From contig NZ_JBBYXK010000002.1 in assembly GCF_039655875.1 (NCBI RefSeq), forward strand, positions 186,001 through 250,000: 64,000 nucleotides of DNA. Reading direction: 5' to 3'. This DNA comes from Emcibacter sp. SYSU 3D8 (GTDB lineage Bacteria; Pseudomonadota; Alphaproteobacteria; SMXS01). Each line of letters begins with the position of its first letter. Positions within the stretch are counted from its first letter, which is position 1. The translations under genes were made by a program, and so were the position numbers. Below the pieces are notes generated by a model. The model worked only from the letters and a program-made list of their open reading frames with translations, searched no databases and was not told the origin of the DNA. Positions 7,098 through 56,396 of the stretch are shown here, piece after piece.

Positions 7098-7101
<4 letters not shown>
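6232..7101 (-). CDS. folP: Dihydropteroate synthase
   Basis: FolP condenses p-aminobenzoate with dihydropterin diphosphate to dihydropteroate; it is the sulfonamide target. A TIM-barrel protein is visible with [17 protein letters not shown] (pterin/diphosphate loop), [35 protein letters not shown] and the late SRKSFLG motif. The 289-residue frame starts at a TTG that overlaps the ftsH stop by four bases. An ATG at 7062, 13 codons in, is a credible alternative start that would still leave 11 residues before the first motif. The 3' end overlaps the glmM start by four bases. Confidence 0.93.
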
Positions 7102-9044
<1,943 letters not shown>

Positions 9045-9122
9045 CGCGTGCCCGCCTGCCGGGCCGTCCGTCAAAGATAGGATGTTTGCCCGGGCAGACA
9101 AGCACCATGAACACGCAATAGG

Positions 9123-42702: not shown

Positions 42703-43608
42703 GTGTCTGCCGCATCGTTTCTATTCCAGAGGCGGTTAAGCCAGCTGGTCAAGTCCGAGCGCCTGCGGACGCTGTACATCCTGCTGGTGGTGTACCCTGC
42801 CGCATGGATCGATTATTTCGCGCACCGCCGGCTGTTCGAAAACATTCGAGCTTACGTCACCTTCATCGGCTACCCCAGAAGCGGGCATTCGCTGGTCGGC
42901 GCCTTGCTGAACGCACACCCGCAGGCGCTGATCGCCCATGAACTGTTCGCCACCCGGTATTTCAGACTGGGGTTCCGGCGGCAGCAAGTTCTGGCGCTGC
43001 TGTTGCGCCGCGACGTGGATTTCACTGAACGGGGACGCGTGAATGCGGGCTATTCTTATGATGTGCCGGGCGGCTTCCAGGGCGTGCATGACTGTCTGCT
43101 TGTCGTCGGCGACAAGAAGGCCGGCGGCACCATCTGGAGTTTGAGGGAGCGGCCGGGCCTGCTCGGCGTCATGCGCCGCCGCATGGCCATGCCCATGCGG
43201 TTCGTCCACAGCGTGCGCAACCCCTACGACAACATCGCCACCATGTCCCGGCGGGAACAACGATCCGTGGCTTACACGATCAATCGCTATCGCAAGCTGG
43301 CCGTCACGTGCCAGCAGGTGATGGAACGGCTGGAGCCCGAGGAACTGCTGCAGCAATGGCACGAGGACTTCGTCGAGGACGTGGAAGGGCATATGAGCCA
43401 GCTCTGCGCCTTCGTGGGACTGGAGGCCGACCCGGCGTTTCTGGCCGCGTGCGACGCCGTGGTGTTCGAATCCCCCAAATTGTCGCGCGACAGCGTGATC
43501 TGGACTGCCGAGGACGTGGAACAGGTCGAGGCCCTGTGCCGGGAATTGCCGTTCCTGGCCCGCTATGCCGGATCGCCGGTCACCATCGGCAGGCAAGCCG
43601 CCGCCTGA
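42703..43608 (+). CDS. Sulfotransferase-family (PAPS-dependent) protein
   Basis: A 301-residue P-loop protein. GYPRSGHSLVGALLNAHP (residues 56-73) fits the 5'-PSB loop that binds the PAPS 5'-phosphosulfate, and RFVHSVRNPYDNIATM (about 165-180) fits the 3'-phosphate site of sulfotransferases. The start is GTG with a purine-rich GGGGGTGGGGGA upstream. An N-terminal hydrophobic stretch (about 22-40) might associate with the membrane. It stands alone with no sulfation genes nearby; the acceptor is unknown. Confidence 0.8.
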   Translation: MSAASFLFQRRLSQLVKSERLRTLYILLVVYPAAWIDYFAHRRLFENIRAYVTFIGYPRSGHSLVGALLNAHPQALIAHELFATRYFRLGFRRQQVLALLLRRDVDFTERGRVNAGYSYDVPGGFQGVHDCLLVVGDKKAGGTIWSLRERPGLLGVMRRRMAMPMRFVHSVRNPYDNIATMSRREQRSVAYTINRYRKLAVTCQQVMERLEPEELLQQWHEDFVEDVEGHMSQLCAFVGLEADPAFLAACDAVVFESPKLSRDSVIWTAEDVEQVEALCRELPFLARYAGSPVTIGRQAAA

Positions 43609-44703: not shown

Positions 44704-46545
<1,842 letters not shown>

Positions 46546-46648
46546 TGCTCCAACTCCTTGCCGCAAGCGGCCTGATCCACAGCCTCAAGCCTACATCAGC
46601 CCGGTCCGCCGTGCGATTCAGCGATTGTGCGGCAACGGCAGCGGCGGC

Positions 46649-48235: not shown

Positions 48236-48265
48236 AGGGACCATGCATATAGGGACCATGCATAT
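48236..48265 (+). repeat. 15-bp tandem duplication spanning ribosome site and start codon
   Basis: The unit agggaccatgcatat occurs twice head-to-tail (48236-48250 and 48251-48265). Each copy has a GGGA motif and an ATG; since 15 is a multiple of three, both ATGs (48243 and 48258) are in frame with the GNAT gene. Confidence 0.9.
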
Positions 48266-48740
48266 ACGGCCAGCCACCCGGGATGACGCATCCGCCATAT
48301 GGGCGATCATCGGTCCCACCATCAGGGCCGGGGAAACCTACACGATTGAACCGGGCATTGCCGAGGAGGCCGGCATCGAACGGTGGCTGGGCCGCGATCG
48401 CGAAACCTTCGTCGCCCTGGACGGCGATCAGGTCGTCGGCACCTACTATCTCCGGCCCAACCAGCAAGGCGGGGGCAGCCACGTAGCGAATTGCGGCTAC
48501 ATGACGCTGCAGGCCGCCGGCGGCCGGGGCATCGCGCGCCTGATGTGCGAGCATTCGATGGTGGCGGCGCGGCGACAGGGCTTTCGCGCCATGCAGTTCA
48601 ACTTCGTCGTCAGCACCAACGAGCGTGCCGTCGCTCTCTGGCGGTCACTGGGTTTCGATATCGTCGGGCGGTTGCCGGGCGCATTCCGCCATCCGGCGCT
48701 GGGCTATGTGGACGCCTTCGTCATGTTCAGAAACCTGTAA
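48243..48740 (+). CDS. GNAT-family N-acetyltransferase
   Basis: A 165-residue GNAT protein (160 if translation begins at the second ATG, 48258). MHIRPATRDDASAIWAIIGPTIRAG is the common N-terminus; MTLQAAGGRGIARLMCEHS (about 88-106) is the acetyl-CoA loop, and VSTNERAVALWRSLGFDIVGRLPGAFRH the C-terminal part with the usual Asn-x-x-Ala-x-x-x-Tyr/Trp pattern. It resembles PhnO/PAT-like enzymes of unknown acceptor. It is followed by a second GNAT gene after five bases and may belong to the amide-ligase cluster. Confidence 0.88.
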   Translation: MHIGTMHIRPATRDDASAIWAIIGPTIRAGETYTIEPGIAEEAGIERWLGRDRETFVALDGDQVVGTYYLRPNQQGGGSHVANCGYMTLQAAGGRGIARLMCEHSMVAARRQGFRAMQFNFVVSTNERAVALWRSLGFDIVGRLPGAFRHPALGYVDAFVMFRNL

Positions 48741-48745
48741 TCGCG

Positions 48746-49207
48746 ATGACACACCGGATCCGCCCCGCCACGCTCGCCGACATCCCGGCCATGGTGCGGC
48801 TGGAGCAGATTTCATTCCCCGGCGACCGGTTGTCGGTACGCTCATTGCGGCGTCTGGTGCGCGAGGGCCGCGCCATCTGCCTGGTCGCCGAAGTGGAGGA
48901 GCACGTGGTCGGCGACGCGGTGGTGCTGCTGCGCCGGGGCAGCCGGTCGGCGCGGCTCTACTCCGTCGCCGTCGATCCAGCCCGGCGCAAGGCGGGAATC
49001 GGCACTGCGCTGATGGCCGAGGCGGAACGGCTGGCGGTATCGTCGGGCCGTGATGTGATGCGGCTGGAGGTGCGCGAGGACAACGTGGCGGCGCATCGCC
49101 GCTACCTGGCGACCGGCTACGTGACGGTCGGCAGCAAGCCGGGTTTCTATGACGACGGCGCGGCGGCGATCTCCATGAAAAAGCGCCTCGCGGGACTACC
49201 GGTCTAG
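48746..49207 (+). CDS. GNAT-family N-acetyltransferase (RimI-like)
   Basis: A 153-residue GNAT with MTHRIRPATLADIPAMVRLEQISFPGDRLS at the start, the acetyl-CoA loop VAVDPARRKAGIGTALMAEAERLA (about 74-97), and VREDNVAAHRRYLATGYVTVG. The pattern is close to RimI-type protein acetyltransferases and to the GNAT enzymes reported beside RimK-like ATP-grasp proteins in amidoligase gene neighbourhoods. It ends 146 bases before the ATP-grasp gene. Confidence 0.88.
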   Translation: MTHRIRPATLADIPAMVRLEQISFPGDRLSVRSLRRLVREGRAICLVAEVEEHVVGDAVVLLRRGSRSARLYSVAVDPARRKAGIGTALMAEAERLAVSSGRDVMRLEVREDNVAAHRRYLATGYVTVGSKPGFYDDGAAAISMKKRLAGLPV

Positions 49208-49353
49208 CCGTCAAACGCCATCTTTACTGAACCAATAGCGGCGCGCATCATGGCACGCGGCGGGGTTCAAACGGGGGGATGCGCCCGCGACGGCCATACC
49301 GCCCCGAACGGCGCTCCAGACACAAGTCAACCAGTTCCAACCACGAAGGCCCC

Positions 49354-50814
49354 ATGGCGCGTCATATCATCATTGTCGACTCCCAGGCCGACTGCGAATG
49401 GGCCCGGAAGGCGGGCAAGGCCGTGACCCTGCAGCAATATGTCGGATCGCCCGATGGCCTGTCGAGCAAGAGCGCGCGCGTCATCAATCTGAGCGGCGAC
49501 CTGGAATATCTCGATCTGGGCTATTACTGCTCGCTGCTGGCCGAGGCGCGTGGCCAGAAGGTGGTGCCGACGGTCGAGACCATTCTCAACCTGTCGCGCA
49601 AGCAGCTCTACAGCGTCCAGCTGCCCGACCTGAACTACACCCTGCGCGACGAGATCGGGAAGCTGTCAAATCCGCCGCAGGCCGCGTTCACGCTGACGGT
49701 CTATTTCGGCCAGACCCCGGGCAACCGGTTCCGCACCTTCGCCCGCCAGTTGTTCGACCGGTTCCGGTGCCCGTTGCTGAGGGTCGAGGTGGCGCTCGAC
49801 GAGCGCTGGAGCGTCAAGACGCTGCAGGCGATCGCGCCGCGCGCGCTCAGCCCCGAGGAGTTCGATTTCTTCCTGGCGCGGCTGGAGCACTATACCCGTG
49901 CCGACTGGCGCGCGCCCAAGGCGCGGCCCACGTCGCGCTTTGCGCTCGGCGTGCTGTACGACGCCTCGGCCAAGCTGCCGCCGTCCTCGCCAGAGACGAT
50001 CAGGAAGTTCGTCTCCATCGGCGCCCAGATGGGCATCGACGTCGAGACCATCGAGCGCAAGGACTATCTGCGCCTCGCGGAATACGACGCCCTGTTCATC
50101 CGCGAGACCACCACGCTGGAGAATCACACCTTCCGTTTTGCCCAGAAGGCCGTGTTCGAGGGCCTGCCCGTGATCGACGATCCGGTGTCGATCCTGCGCT
50201 GTACCAACAAGGTCTACCTGGCCGAATTGCTGCAGACCCACAAGGTGGCGGCGCCCAGGACCGTCATCGTCGACCGCCTGAACCTTCTCAACGCCGAGGC
50301 GCAGCTGTCCTATCCGCTGGTGCTGAAAATTCCCGACGGCTCGTTCTCGCGCGGCGTGGTCAAGGTGGAGAACCGCTCGGACCTGCTGGAGCATGGCAAG
50401 CGCCTGTTCCGTCATTCGGCCGTGATCCTGGCCCAGGAATTCATGTTCACCGAGTTTGACTGGCGGGTCGGGGTGCTGAATCGCAAGCCGCTCTTCGTGT
50501 CGCAATACTTCATGTCGCGCCGGCACTGGCAGATCATCAACCACAAGCCGGGCGGCGGATTCGCCGAAGGCGCGTTCAAATCCGTGGCCGTCGAGGACGC
50601 GCCGAAAGAGGTCGTCGAGGCAGGCGTGCGCGCCGCCAACCTGGTCGGAGACGGCCTGTACGGCGTCGACCTGAAACAGCGTGACGACGGCGTTTTCGTC
50701 ATCGAAATCAACGATAACCCCAATATTGACCGGGGCGTTGAAGACGGCATCCTGAAGGACGAATTGTACAAAAGCGTGCTTGCCGACTTCGTGCGCCGCA
50801 TCGAGAGCCGATAA
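49354..50814 (+). CDS. RimK-family ATP-grasp ligase with RLAN-type N-terminal domain
   Basis: A 486-residue protein. The N-terminal half (about 1-200, MARHIIIVDSQADCEWARKA) is the RimK-like ATP-grasp N-terminal (RLAN) domain found in a large uncharacterised family; the C-terminal half is the ATP-grasp fold with LVLKIPDGSFSRGVVKV (glycine-rich loop), AQEFMFTEFDWRVGVLN and the metal-binding EINDNPNIDRG (451-461). RimK-type enzymes form peptide or amide bonds through acyl phosphates. Earlier comparative work placed such genes with GNATs and C39 peptidases. The gene lies between two GNATs and three asparagine-synthetase-like genes. Confidence 0.9.
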   Translation: MARHIIIVDSQADCEWARKAGKAVTLQQYVGSPDGLSSKSARVINLSGDLEYLDLGYYCSLLAEARGQKVVPTVETILNLSRKQLYSVQLPDLNYTLRDEIGKLSNPPQAAFTLTVYFGQTPGNRFRTFARQLFDRFRCPLLRVEVALDERWSVKTLQAIAPRALSPEEFDFFLARLEHYTRADWRAPKARPTSRFALGVLYDASAKLPPSSPETIRKFVSIGAQMGIDVETIERKDYLRLAEYDALFIRETTTLENHTFRFAQKAVFEGLPVIDDPVSILRCTNKVYLAELLQTHKVAAPRTVIVDRLNLLNAEAQLSYPLVLKIPDGSFSRGVVKVENRSDLLEHGKRLFRHSAVILAQEFMFTEFDWRVGVLNRKPLFVSQYFMSRRHWQIINHKPGGGFAEGAFKSVAVEDAPKEVVEAGVRAANLVGDGLYGVDLKQRDDGVFVIEINDNPNIDRGVEDGILKDELYKSVLADFVRRIESR

Positions 50815-50893
50815 GACCGTCCCCTGCTTTCCTTTTCCTCCGGCGACGCACTACTATGCGCCATGGGGCCAAAATGAATTTGGGGTGGTCGCG

Positions 50894-52693
50894 TTGAGCG
50901 AACCAGTGTTTGTGGCAGTCGTGAATTGCGGTGATGCCGACAAGGCCGCGCAATACATCGCCACCGCGATGGCGCCGCGAGACATCACGGAAATCCCGCT
51001 GCAACGCGGCCGCATGCTGTTGTGCACCTGGGCTGTGGCGCCAGCGAGACCGGACCGAGGCATCCTCGCCGTCGTCGACGGCACCGCCGGATCGCCGGAA
51101 GTGGCCGTGCCGACGGCGCTGATCGACACGGACGGAATTCCCGCCGGCCTGCTGAACCGGATTTCGCAGGACCGCAGCTACCTGTATCTGGACGAGGCGC
51201 GGTCTCTCGCGTTCCTGACCGATCATATCGGCACGTCGCGCATCTATCATGTGCAGGCCGCCGGCTGCGATGTCTTTTCCGACAATCTTGCCGTGTTGGC
51301 GCGGCTGGCGCCGGAACCGGACGAGGATTGTCTCGCCTTCTTCCTGACCAATGGCGCCACGTTCATGGACCGCACGCTACATGCGGGACTGAGCGCGTTG
51401 CCCGTGGCCAGCATCGTGACCCTTGCGGATACCGGACCCGCCGCGCGCCGCTACTGGAACTTCCGGCCGGGCCAGGACGCGGATCCGGACACCGACGCCG
51501 TGTCGCGCGGCCTGTGGGACCGGATCGAGTCCGCCGTCGCCGCGCACACCGCAGGACGGCAGATCGTCTTGCCGCTGTCGGGCGGCCATGATTCCACCAC
51601 GCTGCTCGGCATCCTGCACCGGTCGGGCGCGGCAATCACCGCGTTCTCCTACGTCAATGGTGAACCTCAACCCCATTCCGACGCGGCCGTCGCCCGCGAA
51701 CAGGCCCGCAGGCTCGGCGTCGCGCACACCACCTACCGGATTGACGGCACCGACACACTCAGCCTGATCCGGCAGAATCTGGCTCAGGGATTGCGTCTTC
51801 GAGGCTGCTGCAACGAGATCGGCGCCTATCGCGATGCGGCAGCGGCGGCGCGGGAGAAATTCGCGGACCCGCTGTTCGTATTCGGCGACCACCTTTTCGG
51901 TCAGCGTACGCTGCGGTTGAAGACGGCAACGGACATGCTGGGCGGCGCCGCCGTCAAGCATCCGGACACGTTGCTGGCCTACGTGCCGCTGCTGGGTGCG
52001 GAACGGGTTTCCGGTCTCCAGCGAACATTGGCAGCCGACTACCGCCGCCTGCTGGATGCCGCACCACCATTTGAACATCCGGACGATCTCAAGGATTATC
52101 TCTATTCGTCGGTATCGGCGACCTGGGATCTGCTTCCCATGCGCGTCCATACGGCGGGCACTCAATTGCCGTACACCACGCCGCTCTACGACATCGCCAT
52201 GCTCGATTTCCTGAAGCACCTGCATTTCAGCCACCGGCTGGACAAACGATTGTTCCGGCAGGTGTGCGAACGAAAATTGCCCGAATTGTTCAGCCAGCCC
52301 CGGTCCAGAGACCGGCAAGGCGTTTCCGACGTCGCATCGGCGCTACGCCGCGACGCGCCGGCGATCCGGGAAGTGTCTTCCACGCTCGACGGCGTGATCC
52401 CCGGTCTGGCGCTGCCGGGTGGCTTCGACGCCATGCTGGACACGGTGCTGGCGTCACGGCCGCCACCGCCGGGCGGTCCGTTGCTGTCGCGTCCCGAGGC
52501 CTTCGGCCTGCAGTTCTTCCGCAACCTCACCCGGCTGCAGGTCCTGCCGCTGCACTGGCTGCAACCGATCAAGCGGCGGTTCTGGAACACCCACCAGATT
52601 CTGCTGGATCCGGCCTACATGTTCCGCAGGGTGCTGCATCTGGCCATGGGCTTCCAGCAGCTCGGTCCTCCGATTCGGCCCCCCGAACCATGA
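50894..52693 (+). CDS. Asparagine-synthetase-like amide ligase, paralogue 1
   Basis: A 599-residue protein with the asparagine synthetase B two-domain plan. I place the start at TTG 50894 (SEPVFVAVVN), behind a GGGGTGG site and aligned with the paralogues; the frame opens upstream to an ATG at 50780 inside the ATP-grasp gene. The N-terminal Ntn-like domain keeps a TDHIGTSRIY motif but has no Cys at position 2. The synthetase domain has the PP-loop SGGHDS (229-234), FGDHLFG (330-336) and DKRLFRQVCERKLPELF near 450. It probably adenylates a carboxylate for amide formation. It overlaps paralogue 2 by four bases. Confidence 0.85.
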   Translation: MSEPVFVAVVNCGDADKAAQYIATAMAPRDITEIPLQRGRMLLCTWAVAPARPDRGILAVVDGTAGSPEVAVPTALIDTDGIPAGLLNRISQDRSYLYLDEARSLAFLTDHIGTSRIYHVQAAGCDVFSDNLAVLARLAPEPDEDCLAFFLTNGATFMDRTLHAGLSALPVASIVTLADTGPAARRYWNFRPGQDADPDTDAVSRGLWDRIESAVAAHTAGRQIVLPLSGGHDSTTLLGILHRSGAAITAFSYVNGEPQPHSDAAVAREQARRLGVAHTTYRIDGTDTLSLIRQNLAQGLRLRGCCNEIGAYRDAAAAAREKFADPLFVFGDHLFGQRTLRLKTATDMLGGAAVKHPDTLLAYVPLLGAERVSGLQRTLAADYRRLLDAAPPFEHPDDLKDYLYSSVSATWDLLPMRVHTAGTQLPYTTPLYDIAMLDFLKHLHFSHRLDKRLFRQVCERKLPELFSQPRSRDRQGVSDVASALRRDAPAIREVSSTLDGVIPGLALPGGFDAMLDTVLASRPPPPGGPLLSRPEAFGLQFFRNLTRLQVLPLHWLQPIKRRFWNTHQILLDPAYMFRRVLHLAMGFQQLGPPIRPPEP

Positions 52694-54528
52694 CAGCCGC
52701 GCCGGGTTTCGTGGCGTTCATCCATGATGATGCCGCGTCGCCAGCGGTCGACACGGCTGTTGCCGCCCTGGGCCTGTCGGGAGCGCGGCGCGTGCCGACA
52801 GCAGATGGATGGCTGACCTTGTGGCGCGGCGAAGACGGCAACAGCGGCGACATGCTGGTCATCGCCGATGGCACGGGCGGTGCGCCCTCGGTGGCCGTGC
52901 CTCGTGACGTCGTGCAGGAAGTGCCTGCGGAGCTGTCCGTACAGATCGCGCAGCACCGCAGCTATCTGTGGCTCGATCGGGAACGGCGGGTGCGGGTCTG
53001 GACCGACCATACCGGCGTCTCGCGCCTGTATGCCGCCGCGTTCCAGGGCTGTCTGGCAATATCCGACTGCCCATCGCCGCTGGCCGCGCTGGCGCCAGAG
53101 CTTGACCAGGCGATGGTTGCAAGCTTCGTGGTCAATCGCTGGCTTCTGGCCGACCGTACTCTGCACCAGGGCGTGCGCGCCCTCCCCGTGGCCAGTACCG
53201 GCGCGCTGAATCAGGACGGCATGTCGATCGAGGCCTACTGGCGCTTCCAGCCCGGTGGCCAGGCGTGGGAAGACGAGAGGGAACTGGAGGAGGAATTCTG
53301 GCGCCGCATCCGGACAGCGGTGGTCGCCCATGCGGGCCAGCGGGAAATCATGCTGCCATTGTCGGGCGGTTACGATTCATCGACGCTGCTGGGCGTGCTG
53401 CGCGCCGAAGACCTGCCGTTTCAGACCTTCTCATTCTGCGATGGCACGCCCAAGGCCGGTTCGGATGCCGAGGTCGCCGCCCGGCAGGCGGCCGCTCTTG
53501 GCGTATCCCATCACCTCTATCGCATGGACGGCATCGACACGGTCGCATTGCTGCGAGGCAATCTGGAGAATGGCCTGCGCAACCGGGCGCTGTGCTTCGA
53601 GCTTCCGGTTTACGAAAGGGCTGCGGCGGATGCGCACCGGGCGTTCGGCAATCCCCTGTTCATGTTCGGCGAACAGGGTTTCGGCATGGGTGCGTTCCGC
53701 CTCGACAGCGACACCGACATGCTTGGCATCGGAGCCATGCGTACGCCCGAGACCCTGAATGGCTGCGAAGTGCTGCTGGGCACCGCGCGAACCACGGCGC
53801 TGAAGGGCGCGCTGGGCGCGGCGTACGCGGACATGCTCCAGTCCATCCCCGCCCTGGCCTGCCCGGATGACGCCAAGGACTGGTTCTATTACACGAACCT
53901 GTTCCGCGCCGACACCGGCCCGCTGCGGGTGCACACTGCCGCGCCCTACCTTCCGTTCGCCCAGCCGTTTCTTGATCTGTCACTGATGGATTTCGTCAAG
54001 CATCTCGGTGCAGGACACCGGATCGGCAAGGCGATGTTCAAGCGGGTGTCGGCCCGTCACCTGCCGGAAATTTTTGCCCTCGAGCGCGCGCGCAATACCC
54101 AGGCGGCTGTGAATGTCGGCGCCATGCTCGAACGGGATGAGGCAAGCATTCGGGACGTCATCAGGACATTGTCTCCCAGGATCCCGGGACTGGGAGAGAC
54201 GGACGGCTTCGATCGCCTGCTTTCAGCCGCCATCGCCGAGCACACCGCCCCTGTTACCATGGATCGCGTACGGGAGAATGGCCGCGCGGCAGCCGGCACC
54301 TTCTACCGGGTCCTGTCCTATTGCAGAGTGCTGCCGAAACCGGCGGCGCAGATGCTGCGGCGGAAGCTGCTCAACCGCTACGGCTGGCGGACATCGCGCC
54401 CGGTCCTGTTTCTGCGGACGCTGCAACTGGCGATGATCCTGGATGACCAATTCGGTCCGGCCGTCGCCGCCTCCCGCCCGCAGCCCAAGGCAGCGGGTGA
54501 AAATGGCAGGACTTTGATTCCCCGCTGA
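52690..54528 (+). CDS. Asparagine-synthetase-like amide ligase, paralogue 2
   Basis: A 612-residue paralogue beginning MTAAPGFVAF with its ATG inside the stop of paralogue 1 (ATGA). It has a degenerate Ntn-like domain without the N-terminal Cys, TDHTGVSRLY, PP-loop SGGYDS (225-230), FGEQGFG (326-332) and the GKAMFKRVSARHLPEIF segment corresponding to the lysine region of AsnB. The C-terminal helix set (CRVLPKPAAQMLRRKLLNRYGWRTSRPVLF by position 533-562) is shared with the other copies and is not part of standard AsnB. Glutamine-independent amide or peptide-bond formation is likely; substrate unknown. Confidence 0.85.
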   Translation: MTAAPGFVAFIHDDAASPAVDTAVAALGLSGARRVPTADGWLTLWRGEDGNSGDMLVIADGTGGAPSVAVPRDVVQEVPAELSVQIAQHRSYLWLDRERRVRVWTDHTGVSRLYAAAFQGCLAISDCPSPLAALAPELDQAMVASFVVNRWLLADRTLHQGVRALPVASTGALNQDGMSIEAYWRFQPGGQAWEDERELEEEFWRRIRTAVVAHAGQREIMLPLSGGYDSSTLLGVLRAEDLPFQTFSFCDGTPKAGSDAEVAARQAAALGVSHHLYRMDGIDTVALLRGNLENGLRNRALCFELPVYERAAADAHRAFGNPLFMFGEQGFGMGAFRLDSDTDMLGIGAMRTPETLNGCEVLLGTARTTALKGALGAAYADMLQSIPALACPDDAKDWFYYTNLFRADTGPLRVHTAAPYLPFAQPFLDLSLMDFVKHLGAGHRIGKAMFKRVSARHLPEIFALERARNTQAAVNVGAMLERDEASIRDVIRTLSPRIPGLGETDGFDRLLSAAIAEHTAPVTMDRVRENGRAAAGTFYRVLSYCRVLPKPAAQMLRRKLLNRYGWRTSRPVLFLRTLQLAMILDDQFGPAVAASRPQPKAAGENGRTLIPR

Positions 54529-54584
54529 GCTGAAGCGGCATATCATCAGCCCCGCGCCGCTGTCGCGGCGAGGGGGACTGTCGA

Positions 54585-56396
54585 TTGCGCTTGCCTGAAT
54601 TCCTGGCGGTTATCCACGCGGAAGGCGGCGAAGCCGCGGCGCTGGCGCTTGCAGACCGGCACGCGCCGTCGTCGGTTACCCGGCTTCGCCTTGCCGAAGG
54701 CGGCCTGCTGCTCTGCCGCTGGGACGACAGGCCGGTTCCGCCGCACGGTGCGATCGCGGTCGTCGACGGCACCGGCGGCGCACCGGAAAGGGCGCTGCCC
54801 CGCGCCCTGATCGATACGGACGGCGCACCCGCCGGGCTGGTGGCGGCGGCCAGCCAGCACCGCAGCTATCTGTGGCTCGGCGACGACCGCCGTCTGGCCT
54901 GCTGGACCGATCATCTCGGCACCTCCCGCGTCTACCGGACCTACGCGGATGGGTGCCAGCTGCTGAGCGACGATCCCGTTTTGCTCGCCGGCGCCGATGC
55001 CGTGCCCGACCTGTCCGCCATCGGCAGCTTCCTGGTCAACGGACACCTGGTAAGGAACCGCACGCTGTTCGCCGCGGTAGATTGTCTTCCCCTGGCCAGC
55101 TGCGTGAGCCTTTCCGTGCAGGAAAGCGCCTCCAGGCCGTACTGGCGCCATCGCCCCGGATCGGACATCGGGGCCGACATGCGGGAAGCGGCGCGCGAGA
55201 TGTGGAGCCGGATCACCGCCGCCACTCTTGGATATGCCGAGGGACGGCATGTCGTGATCTCGCTGTCCGGCGGCAACGACTCCACCTCCCTGCTCGGGAT
55301 CCTCCATGGCGCGGGACATCCGGTCAGCGCCTTCTCGTTCGCCGTGGGCGAGCCACGGCCCGGATCGGATGCCGATGTCGCGCGGCGGCGTGCCGCGTTC
55401 CTTGGCATTGAACACAAGATTCACCGCTTCGATCAGGATTTCGATATTGCCGGCATGCTGCGCTCGCACGTGCAGGACGGCCTGATTATGAGAAAGCCCT
55501 GCTTCGAGGTCAGCGCCTATGAGCGCGCCGGCGCCGATGCCGCGGCGCATAGTGGCGGCGCAGTCATGTATTTCGGCGACGAGGCATTCGGCCAGGGCGC
55601 CTTTTGCGTCGGCACCGAACACGAGCTGCTGGGCTCGGCCGCGCTGAAGTCGCCGGACATCCTGTCCCGGTTCGCGCCGCATCTCTCCGCCGACATCAGG
55701 TCGCAGCTCGCCGCGTCGTTATGGGAGGACTATGCCCAGATCCTCGCCCAGCCGCGAATGCGCGCGAACGAGGACACCAAGGACATGCTGTTCCTCGACA
55801 CCTATCTGCGCGCCAATATGGTCGAGATGCGGCGCCAGGCGGCGGCGCGCCGTTCGCCTGTCGCGTTGCCATTCCTGGACCTGTCGGTGATCGACATGGC
55901 GCGGCATATTCCGGCCGGTCTGCGTATCGGCAAGCGCCTGTTCAATGAGGTGGTGCAGGGGAAGTTGCCCGATCTTTTCCGGATCCAGGGCGCGCGGAAC
56001 CCGCAGGGTCAGCCGGTCATCGGCGACGAAATCCGGCGGCAGAAGGCCTTGCTGCACACGGCAATCGGCCAGCTGGACCGCGGTATTCCGGGCGTGATCT
56101 CGCCGGCCGAAATGTCGGCTGCGCTCGACACGATCTGCGACACGCCGGCGGCACCGCTGTCACGGCCCCGAACGGTCGGCAGGTCGGCGCTGCGTATTGT
56201 CATCAAGAGCGGCCTGCTCCCGCGCAGCGTGGTCAATGCATTGCGCCGGCGGTACTGGAACCGATTCAACGCGGGTGCCGACCGCGCCGTGCTGCTGATG
56301 CGCGCGCTGCACCTCGCCATGACTTTCGACGGACTGCCTGCGCGGCACGAGGCTGCGGCGCCCAGACCTAGGCGGGCCGGGAGTCTTTCGGCCTGA
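54585..56396 (+). CDS. Asparagine-synthetase-like amide ligase, paralogue 3
   Basis: A 603-residue paralogue starting at TTG 54585 (RLPEFLAVIH) behind a GAGGGGG site. It carries TDHLGTSRVY, PP-loop SGGNDS (228-233), FGDEAFG (330-336), GKRLFNEVVQGKLPDLF and the family-specific C-terminal region. The N-terminal glutaminase cysteine is absent. It starts 56 bases after paralogue 2 and its 3' end overlaps the convergent antiporter gene by 29 bases, so the cluster ends here. Lasso-peptide cyclases and beta-lactam synthetase are the closest known mechanistic analogues. Confidence 0.85.
   Translation: MRLPEFLAVIHAEGGEAAALALADRHAPSSVTRLRLAEGGLLLCRWDDRPVPPHGAIAVVDGTGGAPERALPRALIDTDGAPAGLVAAASQHRSYLWLGDDRRLACWTDHLGTSRVYRTYADGCQLLSDDPVLLAGADAVPDLSAIGSFLVNGHLVRNRTLFAAVDCLPLASCVSLSVQESASRPYWRHRPGSDIGADMREAAREMWSRITAATLGYAEGRHVVISLSGGNDSTSLLGILHGAGHPVSAFSFAVGEPRPGSDADVARRRAAFLGIEHKIHRFDQDFDIAGMLRSHVQDGLIMRKPCFEVSAYERAGADAAAHSGGAVMYFGDEAFGQGAFCVGTEHELLGSAALKSPDILSRFAPHLSADIRSQLAASLWEDYAQILAQPRMRANEDTKDMLFLDTYLRANMVEMRRQAAARRSPVALPFLDLSVIDMARHIPAGLRIGKRLFNEVVQGKLPDLFRIQGARNPQGQPVIGDEIRRQKALLHTAIGQLDRGIPGVISPAEMSAALDTICDTPAAPLSRPRTVGRSALRIVIKSGLLPRSVVNALRRRYWNRFNAGADRAVLLMRALHLAMTFDGLPARHEAAAPRPRRAGSLSA

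Follow-up and report, generated by a model that had tools for sequence, protein, structure and literature searches.

We analysed the locus at 48243-56396 of a window from Emcibacter sp. SYSU 3D8 (the window is the whole stretch of DNA analysed, 64,000 nucleotides long). Six consecutive open reading frames, all on the plus strand, occupy this locus and are referred to below as GNAT1, GNAT2, RLAN, Asn1, Asn2 and Asn3. An earlier note on this DNA had described two GNATs, an RLAN/RimK-type ATP-grasp ligase and three asparagine-synthetase-like proteins, encoded on the plus strand with short gaps or overlaps; the ORF coordinates bear out this layout, and Pfam the domain calls. The features are listed below.

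48243 or 48261 (ATG) to 48740, plus strand: GNAT1, N-acetyltransferase (Pfam Acetyltransf_1, E = 2e-12)
48746-49207, plus strand: GNAT2, orthologue of the GNAT that accompanies RLAN (Pfam Acetyltransf_1, E = 4e-14)
49208-49353, plus strand: intergenic region upstream of RLAN, with the putative promoter-like element ATCTTTAC...CGCGCATCAT
49354-50814, plus strand: RLAN, an RLAN N-terminal domain plus a RimK-type ATP-grasp ligase (Pfam RLAN, E = 7e-43; RimK, 1.5e-5)
50815-50893, plus strand: intergenic region with the element TTTCNTTT-(15/16)-TA(G/C)TATG, a possible promoter of the Asn genes
50894-52693, plus strand: Asn1, TTG start, AsnB superfamily, lineage A (Pfam Asn_synthase, 6e-10)
52690-54528, plus strand: Asn2, AsnB superfamily, present only in the Emcibacter sp. 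SYSU 3D8 genome (Pfam Asn_synthase, 9e-11)
54585-56396, plus strand: Asn3, TTG start, AsnB superfamily, lineage B (Pfam Asn_synthase, 1.5e-11)

The gaps along the series from GNAT1 to Asn3 are 5, 146, 79, -4 and 56 bp, and the ATG of Asn2 overlaps the stop codon of Asn1 (ATGA). Asn3 is followed by a KefC-type antiporter gene in convergent orientation, and the two overlap at the end of Asn3. In the window genome we found exactly three genes of the Asn clade, all of them at this locus. Elsewhere in the window we noted a Sulfotransfer_3 family protein (42703-43608, plus strand; 4e-11), which is also found upstream of the same region in the genomes G005 and G007, and two FtsH-type proteins on the minus strand, one at 44704-46566, recognised from sequence, and the other at 7098-9101, confirmed by Pfam through its Peptidase_M41 domain.

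The two longer gaps were compared among the seven genomes of our genus sample, namely the window genome and G002-G007. The ATCTTTAC...CGCGCATCAT element of the 146-bp gap is conserved in all seven, and conservation of this gap is limited to the promoter-like blocks. The element in the 79-bp gap before Asn1 is conserved in the window genome, G005, G006 and G007, and is looser in G004. A generic promoter-consensus scan reported neither gap element; from their sequences we infer that both look like promoters. As both gaps carry such conserved elements, separate transcription is plausible, and the six genes need not share one transcript.

The GNAT-RLAN pair in the class

We found RLAN in 45 of 385 sampled genomes of the class, the identity of the full-length matches being 41-67% outside the genus and 90-94% within it. 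The EINDNPN metal-binding motif is present in its translation, and its match to the rimK_fam model TIGR00768 stays below the cutoff. We examined 36 RLAN loci from other class genera, and in every one a GNAT adjoins RLAN or is fused to it: it lies directly upstream in 34 loci, and in the remaining two it shares one ORF with RLAN. These fusion ORFs (L114 and L117, from two distant class genomes) are ∼660 aa long and start ∼540–570 bp before the RLAN match, and they support the view that the two proteins are linked, physically or in function. The RLAN-adjacent GNAT also carries a C39-like peptidase domain (DUF3335) in at least 21 of the 36 loci, confirmed by Pfam on one of them, the homologue at L085.

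At our locus, it is GNAT2 that stands adjacent upstream of RLAN, and its match to the profile built from ORFs upstream of class-wide RLAN reached 4e-56, as compared with only 5e-8 for GNAT1. GNAT1 is a different GNAT; in BLAST searches it matched within the genus only in G003 (73% identical), with no match in the remaining genus loci. We conclude that GNAT2-RLAN is a widespread, strongly conserved pair.

We know of no substrate assigned to the GNAT-RLAN pair. The work of Iyer et al. 2009 on amidoligases reportedly included neighbourhoods of GNAT (with or without C39/DUF3335) and RLAN ATP-grasp genes. GNAT2 and RLAN are clear members of these neighbourhoods, which differ from the present locus in that here the peptidase half is absent from GNAT2 and Asn genes are added downstream. 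Linked ATP-grasp and GNAT genes have been discussed as peptide-ligating and capping systems (PMC4431377). The pair, being common in the class, is the better target for a general question; the interest of this particular locus lies chiefly in its divergent Asn clade.

Fold and catalytic motifs of the Asn proteins

The three Asn proteins score 40–45 bits against PF00733, where the Pfam gathering threshold is 21, and this, together with the two-domain fold of Asn3, places them in the AsnB superfamily. Asn3, the sole paralogue modelled, gave an AlphaFold model with pLDDT 84 and pTM 0.87 from a shallow, 12-sequence alignment. Over residues 4-587 it matched TsnB9 (Z 21.7), carbapenam synthetase (18.5), beta-lactam synthetase (18.0) and E. 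coli AsnB (17.1). The hydroxyamidotransferase TsnB9 (PDB 7YLZ) is thus the best match in fold and also in sequence (E = 1e-7), but the identity over the fold is 13%, and no trichostatin-type or hydroxylamine gene was identified beside the Asn genes. The likeness to beta-lactam and carbapenam synthetases extends over the full-length fold, including a dead Ntn-like N-terminal domain, and over the retained PP-loop and Lys; however, the identity is 12–16% and the Asn motif described below is shortened. For intramolecular lactam closure, the likeness is one of fold only. None of the identified neighbouring ORFs is a beta-lactam pathway gene.

In none of the 11 proteins of the clade (ten from the genus and the G191 relative described below) is a Cys aligned to Cys2 of E. 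coli AsnB, and the N-terminal Ntn-type domain is predicted on this alignment to be glutaminase-dead. On the other hand, all of them retain the PP-loop core SGGxD and a Lys corresponding to AsnB Lys449, the PP-loop of Asn1 (LSGGHDST) being intact, and Cys306, Glu308, Arg447, Lys450 and Gln474 are invariant in the 11-protein alignment. The SGEGSDEVFGGY (SGEGxDExFGGY) motif is shortened in the clade to FGDEAFGQ, FGDHLFGQ or FGEQGFGM (hhalign alignment); its Tyr is lost in all members and its Glu in Asn1 and Asn2.

A 2026 preprint (PMC13060819) found a Glu363-Tyr368 dyad conserved in the five AS-like enzymes that it compared, including PesC, and reported that Tyr368Phe kills activity. Mapped by its spacing, this dyad would correspond to the DE...GY (DExFxGY) of the Asn motif, and at the position so mapped the Asn clade does not carry the carboxylate-activating Glu-Tyr dyad. 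Beta-lactam synthetase also differs at this position.

Glutamine-dependent formation of asparagine is unlikely because the N-terminal Cys is absent and the activation motif degenerate. Scores against TIGR01536 (34–52 bits, cutoff 267) likewise rule against asparagine synthesis by Asn1-3; that the three only make asparagine, a possibility which the earlier note had set against its own proposal, is therefore not expected to hold. As the Cys is lost, SGGxDS and the C-terminal Lys are kept and SGEGxDExFGGY is shortened, the Asn paralogues are most likely glutaminase-free, AMP-forming ligases.

We also compared them with the cyclases of lasso peptides (NF033535) and of ikarugamycin-albusnodin-type macrolactams (NF033561). 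A weak similarity runs over the end of the N-terminal domain and the PP-loop, but the Asn proteins score 15–47 bits against cutoffs of 525 and 300 (15–28 bits for the lasso cyclase model, cutoff 525). Among the annotated neighbours and in the gaps we saw neither a leader peptidase (B protein) nor a precursor; the 79-bp and 56-bp gaps contain no precursor-sized gene, and the 146-bp gap is conserved only in its promoter-like blocks. On these neighbours and gaps, a lasso peptide or graspetide cluster was set aside.

Distribution and divergence of the Asn genes

Between RLAN and KefC, we counted three Asn copies in the window genome, two each in G002, G005, G006 and G007, one in G004 and none in G003; in G005, KefC gave no match in the stretch of the locus examined. 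G003 keeps GNAT1-GNAT2-RLAN, and its RLAN stop codon (L039, G003:C21, 7854-7860) abuts the convergent KefC gene. All six genus genomes with Asn genes keep RLAN and Asn adjacent, even G002 and G004, whose RLAN is ∼10% diverged. Such adjacency could reflect function. However, KefC, GDH and purH downstream are also mostly kept across the genus, and hence retention alone is not a sign of a common function. The RLAN gene tree gives no resolution within the genus; loss of the Asn genes in G003 is suggested by their presence in G002 and G004.

Outside the genus, neither RLAN nor Asn was detected in the three genomes of two further genera of the family. The earlier note had looked to co-occurrence of RLAN with AsnB-like paralogues in other genomes; none of the 36 RLAN loci of other class genera contains a member of the Asn clade (tblastn and a profile search of ORFs within 6 kb), and one of them (L098, G387) has a canonical asnB ∼3.3 kb upstream of RLAN. 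With the Asn-clade profile, six of the 385 class genomes gave matches at E<1e-20. Four belong to the same genus, and the match in G298 is a canonical enzyme with the N-terminal Cys. In the phylum sample, the remaining profile matches were weak, and those that we read were mostly canonical Cys-bearing proteins; a wider peptide-pattern scan is insensitive for a family that evolves as fast as Asn. The Asn genes are thus an almost genus-restricted, tandemly duplicated clade.

The sixth genome, G191, encodes a true Asn-clade relative, the closest one outside the genus (37% identical to Asn1), and gave no RLAN match. The protein sits in an exopolysaccharide locus, among glycosyltransferases, a Wzx flippase, a WcaJ-type sugar phosphotransferase and a Sulfotransfer_3 protein. 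This setting raises the possibility that the Asn proteins modify a cell-surface polysaccharide or the envelope, for example as enzymes that attach an amine to a uronic acid, with their position beside RLAN being incidental. A Sulfotransfer_3 gene is also found 5 kb upstream in the window, as well as in G005 and G007. Yet G191 is a single example outside the genus, and no glycosyltransferases were recognised beside the Asn copies of the genus loci or the orphan ones, and we regard such a role as rather unlikely.

Our tree resolves two old Asn lineages in a constant order, with A adjoining RLAN and B distal. Moderate support places Asn2 in lineage A; the orphan copies, located elsewhere in the genomes of G004 and G005, fall in lineage B. 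The orphan copy of G004 (L026, 9445-12616) lies ∼430 bp downstream of an apparent class I glutamine amidotransferase and beside an apparent cytochrome P450, as judged by eye. We observed no sign of recent horizontal import of the Asn genes: their GC content (0.66–0.68) equals that of the window (0.66), and GC3 is only slightly lower.

The Asn proteins evolve ∼3–5 times faster than RLAN. Orthologues of Asn1 and Asn3 are 62–77% identical to the window proteins where RLAN is 94% identical, with dN/dS of 0.21–0.32 for Asn1/Asn3 as against 0.05–0.10 for RLAN. With values of 0.2–0.3, the Asn1 and Asn3 ORFs are seen to be under purifying selection and hence to be real genes; the Asn genes are, nevertheless, far less constrained than RLAN.

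The fast divergence, together with the loss of the activation dyad and of all copies in G003, could be read as decay, with Asn1-3 being degenerate, non-catalytic or decaying duplicates; the three proteins could be pseudo-enzymes. In G007, a metagenome-assembled genome, the lineage-A copy (L041, 8339-9874) has an in-frame deletion of ∼78 residues in its N-terminal domain, while the near-identical copy of G006 is intact. But the frames are open, the dN/dS values are those of selected genes, and the PP-loop and Lys of lineages A and B, as well as the five residues from Cys306 to Gln474 named above, are invariant. We consider decay very unlikely.

Two probable modules and the case for one pathway

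The comparative evidence favours two neighbouring modules over the one amide-forming cluster that had been proposed. In our judgement, the locus probably consists of the GNAT2-RLAN pair and, adjacent to it, the genus-level Asn1-3, likely AMP-forming ligases. The independence of the first module is supported by the GNAT standing beside or fused to RLAN in all 36 class loci, and by the G003 locus, which lacks Asn. That of the second is supported by the copy number of 0–3, the orphan copies in G004 and G005 and the G191 relative found without RLAN. We also counted the contrasting dN/dS values of RLAN and Asn in favour of two modules.

In the mechanism that we propose for the two modules, GNAT2-RLAN would use an acyl phosphate, formed as ATP goes to ADP, to ligate an amino acid or peptide, and would also acylate the product. 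Each Asn paralogue would adenylate a carboxylate substrate of its own, and the adenylate would be attacked by a dedicated amine or other nucleophile and not by glutamine-derived ammonia. Such chemistry would resemble that of beta-lactam and carbapenam synthetases and of lasso cyclases, in contrast to glutamine-dependent amidation.

Alternatively, the six genes may serve one pathway, in which Asn1-3 would tailor an N-acyl peptide or amino-acid conjugate supplied by GNAT-RLAN (through amidation, lactam formation or conjugation). The genes are adjacent and co-oriented with short gaps, Asn1 and Asn2 are coupled through ATGA, and RLAN-Asn adjacency is kept in six genus genomes. Such a pathway would be NAGGN-like in outline. 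In the N-acetylglutaminylglutamine amide (NAGGN) pathway, GNAT and ATP-grasp functions are followed by an AsnB-like amidotransferase; these are the same part types as here, and GNAT2 and the Asn proteins weakly match its models TIGR03103 and TIGR03104. These matches, however, are far below the cutoffs (20.6 bits against 569 for GNAT2; 20–36 bits against 570 for the Asn proteins), the RLAN protein has no TIGR03103 match, and the Asn proteins lack the glutaminase Cys, unlike in AsnO-type amidation. We thus rejected a NAGGN osmolyte locus. The earlier note knew of no described pathway that combines an RLAN ligase with three AsnB-like paralogues; NAGGN provides, in outline, a described pathway with a GNAT, an ATP-grasp and an AsnB-like part, but the present genes are not members of it.

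Several observations speak against a single pathway: the RLAN-Asn association is absent outside the genus, G003 has GNAT-RLAN but no Asn, and a promoter-like element is conserved between RLAN and Asn1. Of the proposal of one cluster, the gene content and order hold, whereas the Asn association is limited to the genus and separate transcription is plausible. The note itself had named a neighbourhood confined to very close relatives and separate transcription of the genes as findings that would tell against it; the former is what we observed, and the latter is plausible only, from the conserved gap elements. Altogether, we find one common pathway unlikely. It is similarly doubtful that GNAT-RLAN and the dyad-less Asn clade with its predicted dead glutaminase constitute an undescribed genus pathway for a variable peptide- or amide-conjugated metabolite, in which the Asn paralogues would diversify the product between species through carboxylate activation without the usual Glu-Tyr dyad.

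If the Asn proteins are active, they would be AsnB-superfamily ligases that do without the glutaminase nucleophile as well as the usual dyad, and would thereby broaden the range of reactions known for this fold. Their quick turnover (0–3 copies) beside a nearly invariant ligase would then also offer a natural set for tracing changes in substrate choice. Apart from this clade, we noted a second, distinct AsnB-like family in the genus, whose members start with MGQFLI and have no N-terminal Cys (L029, 7078-8808, in G004, and L031, 7717-9540, in G002).
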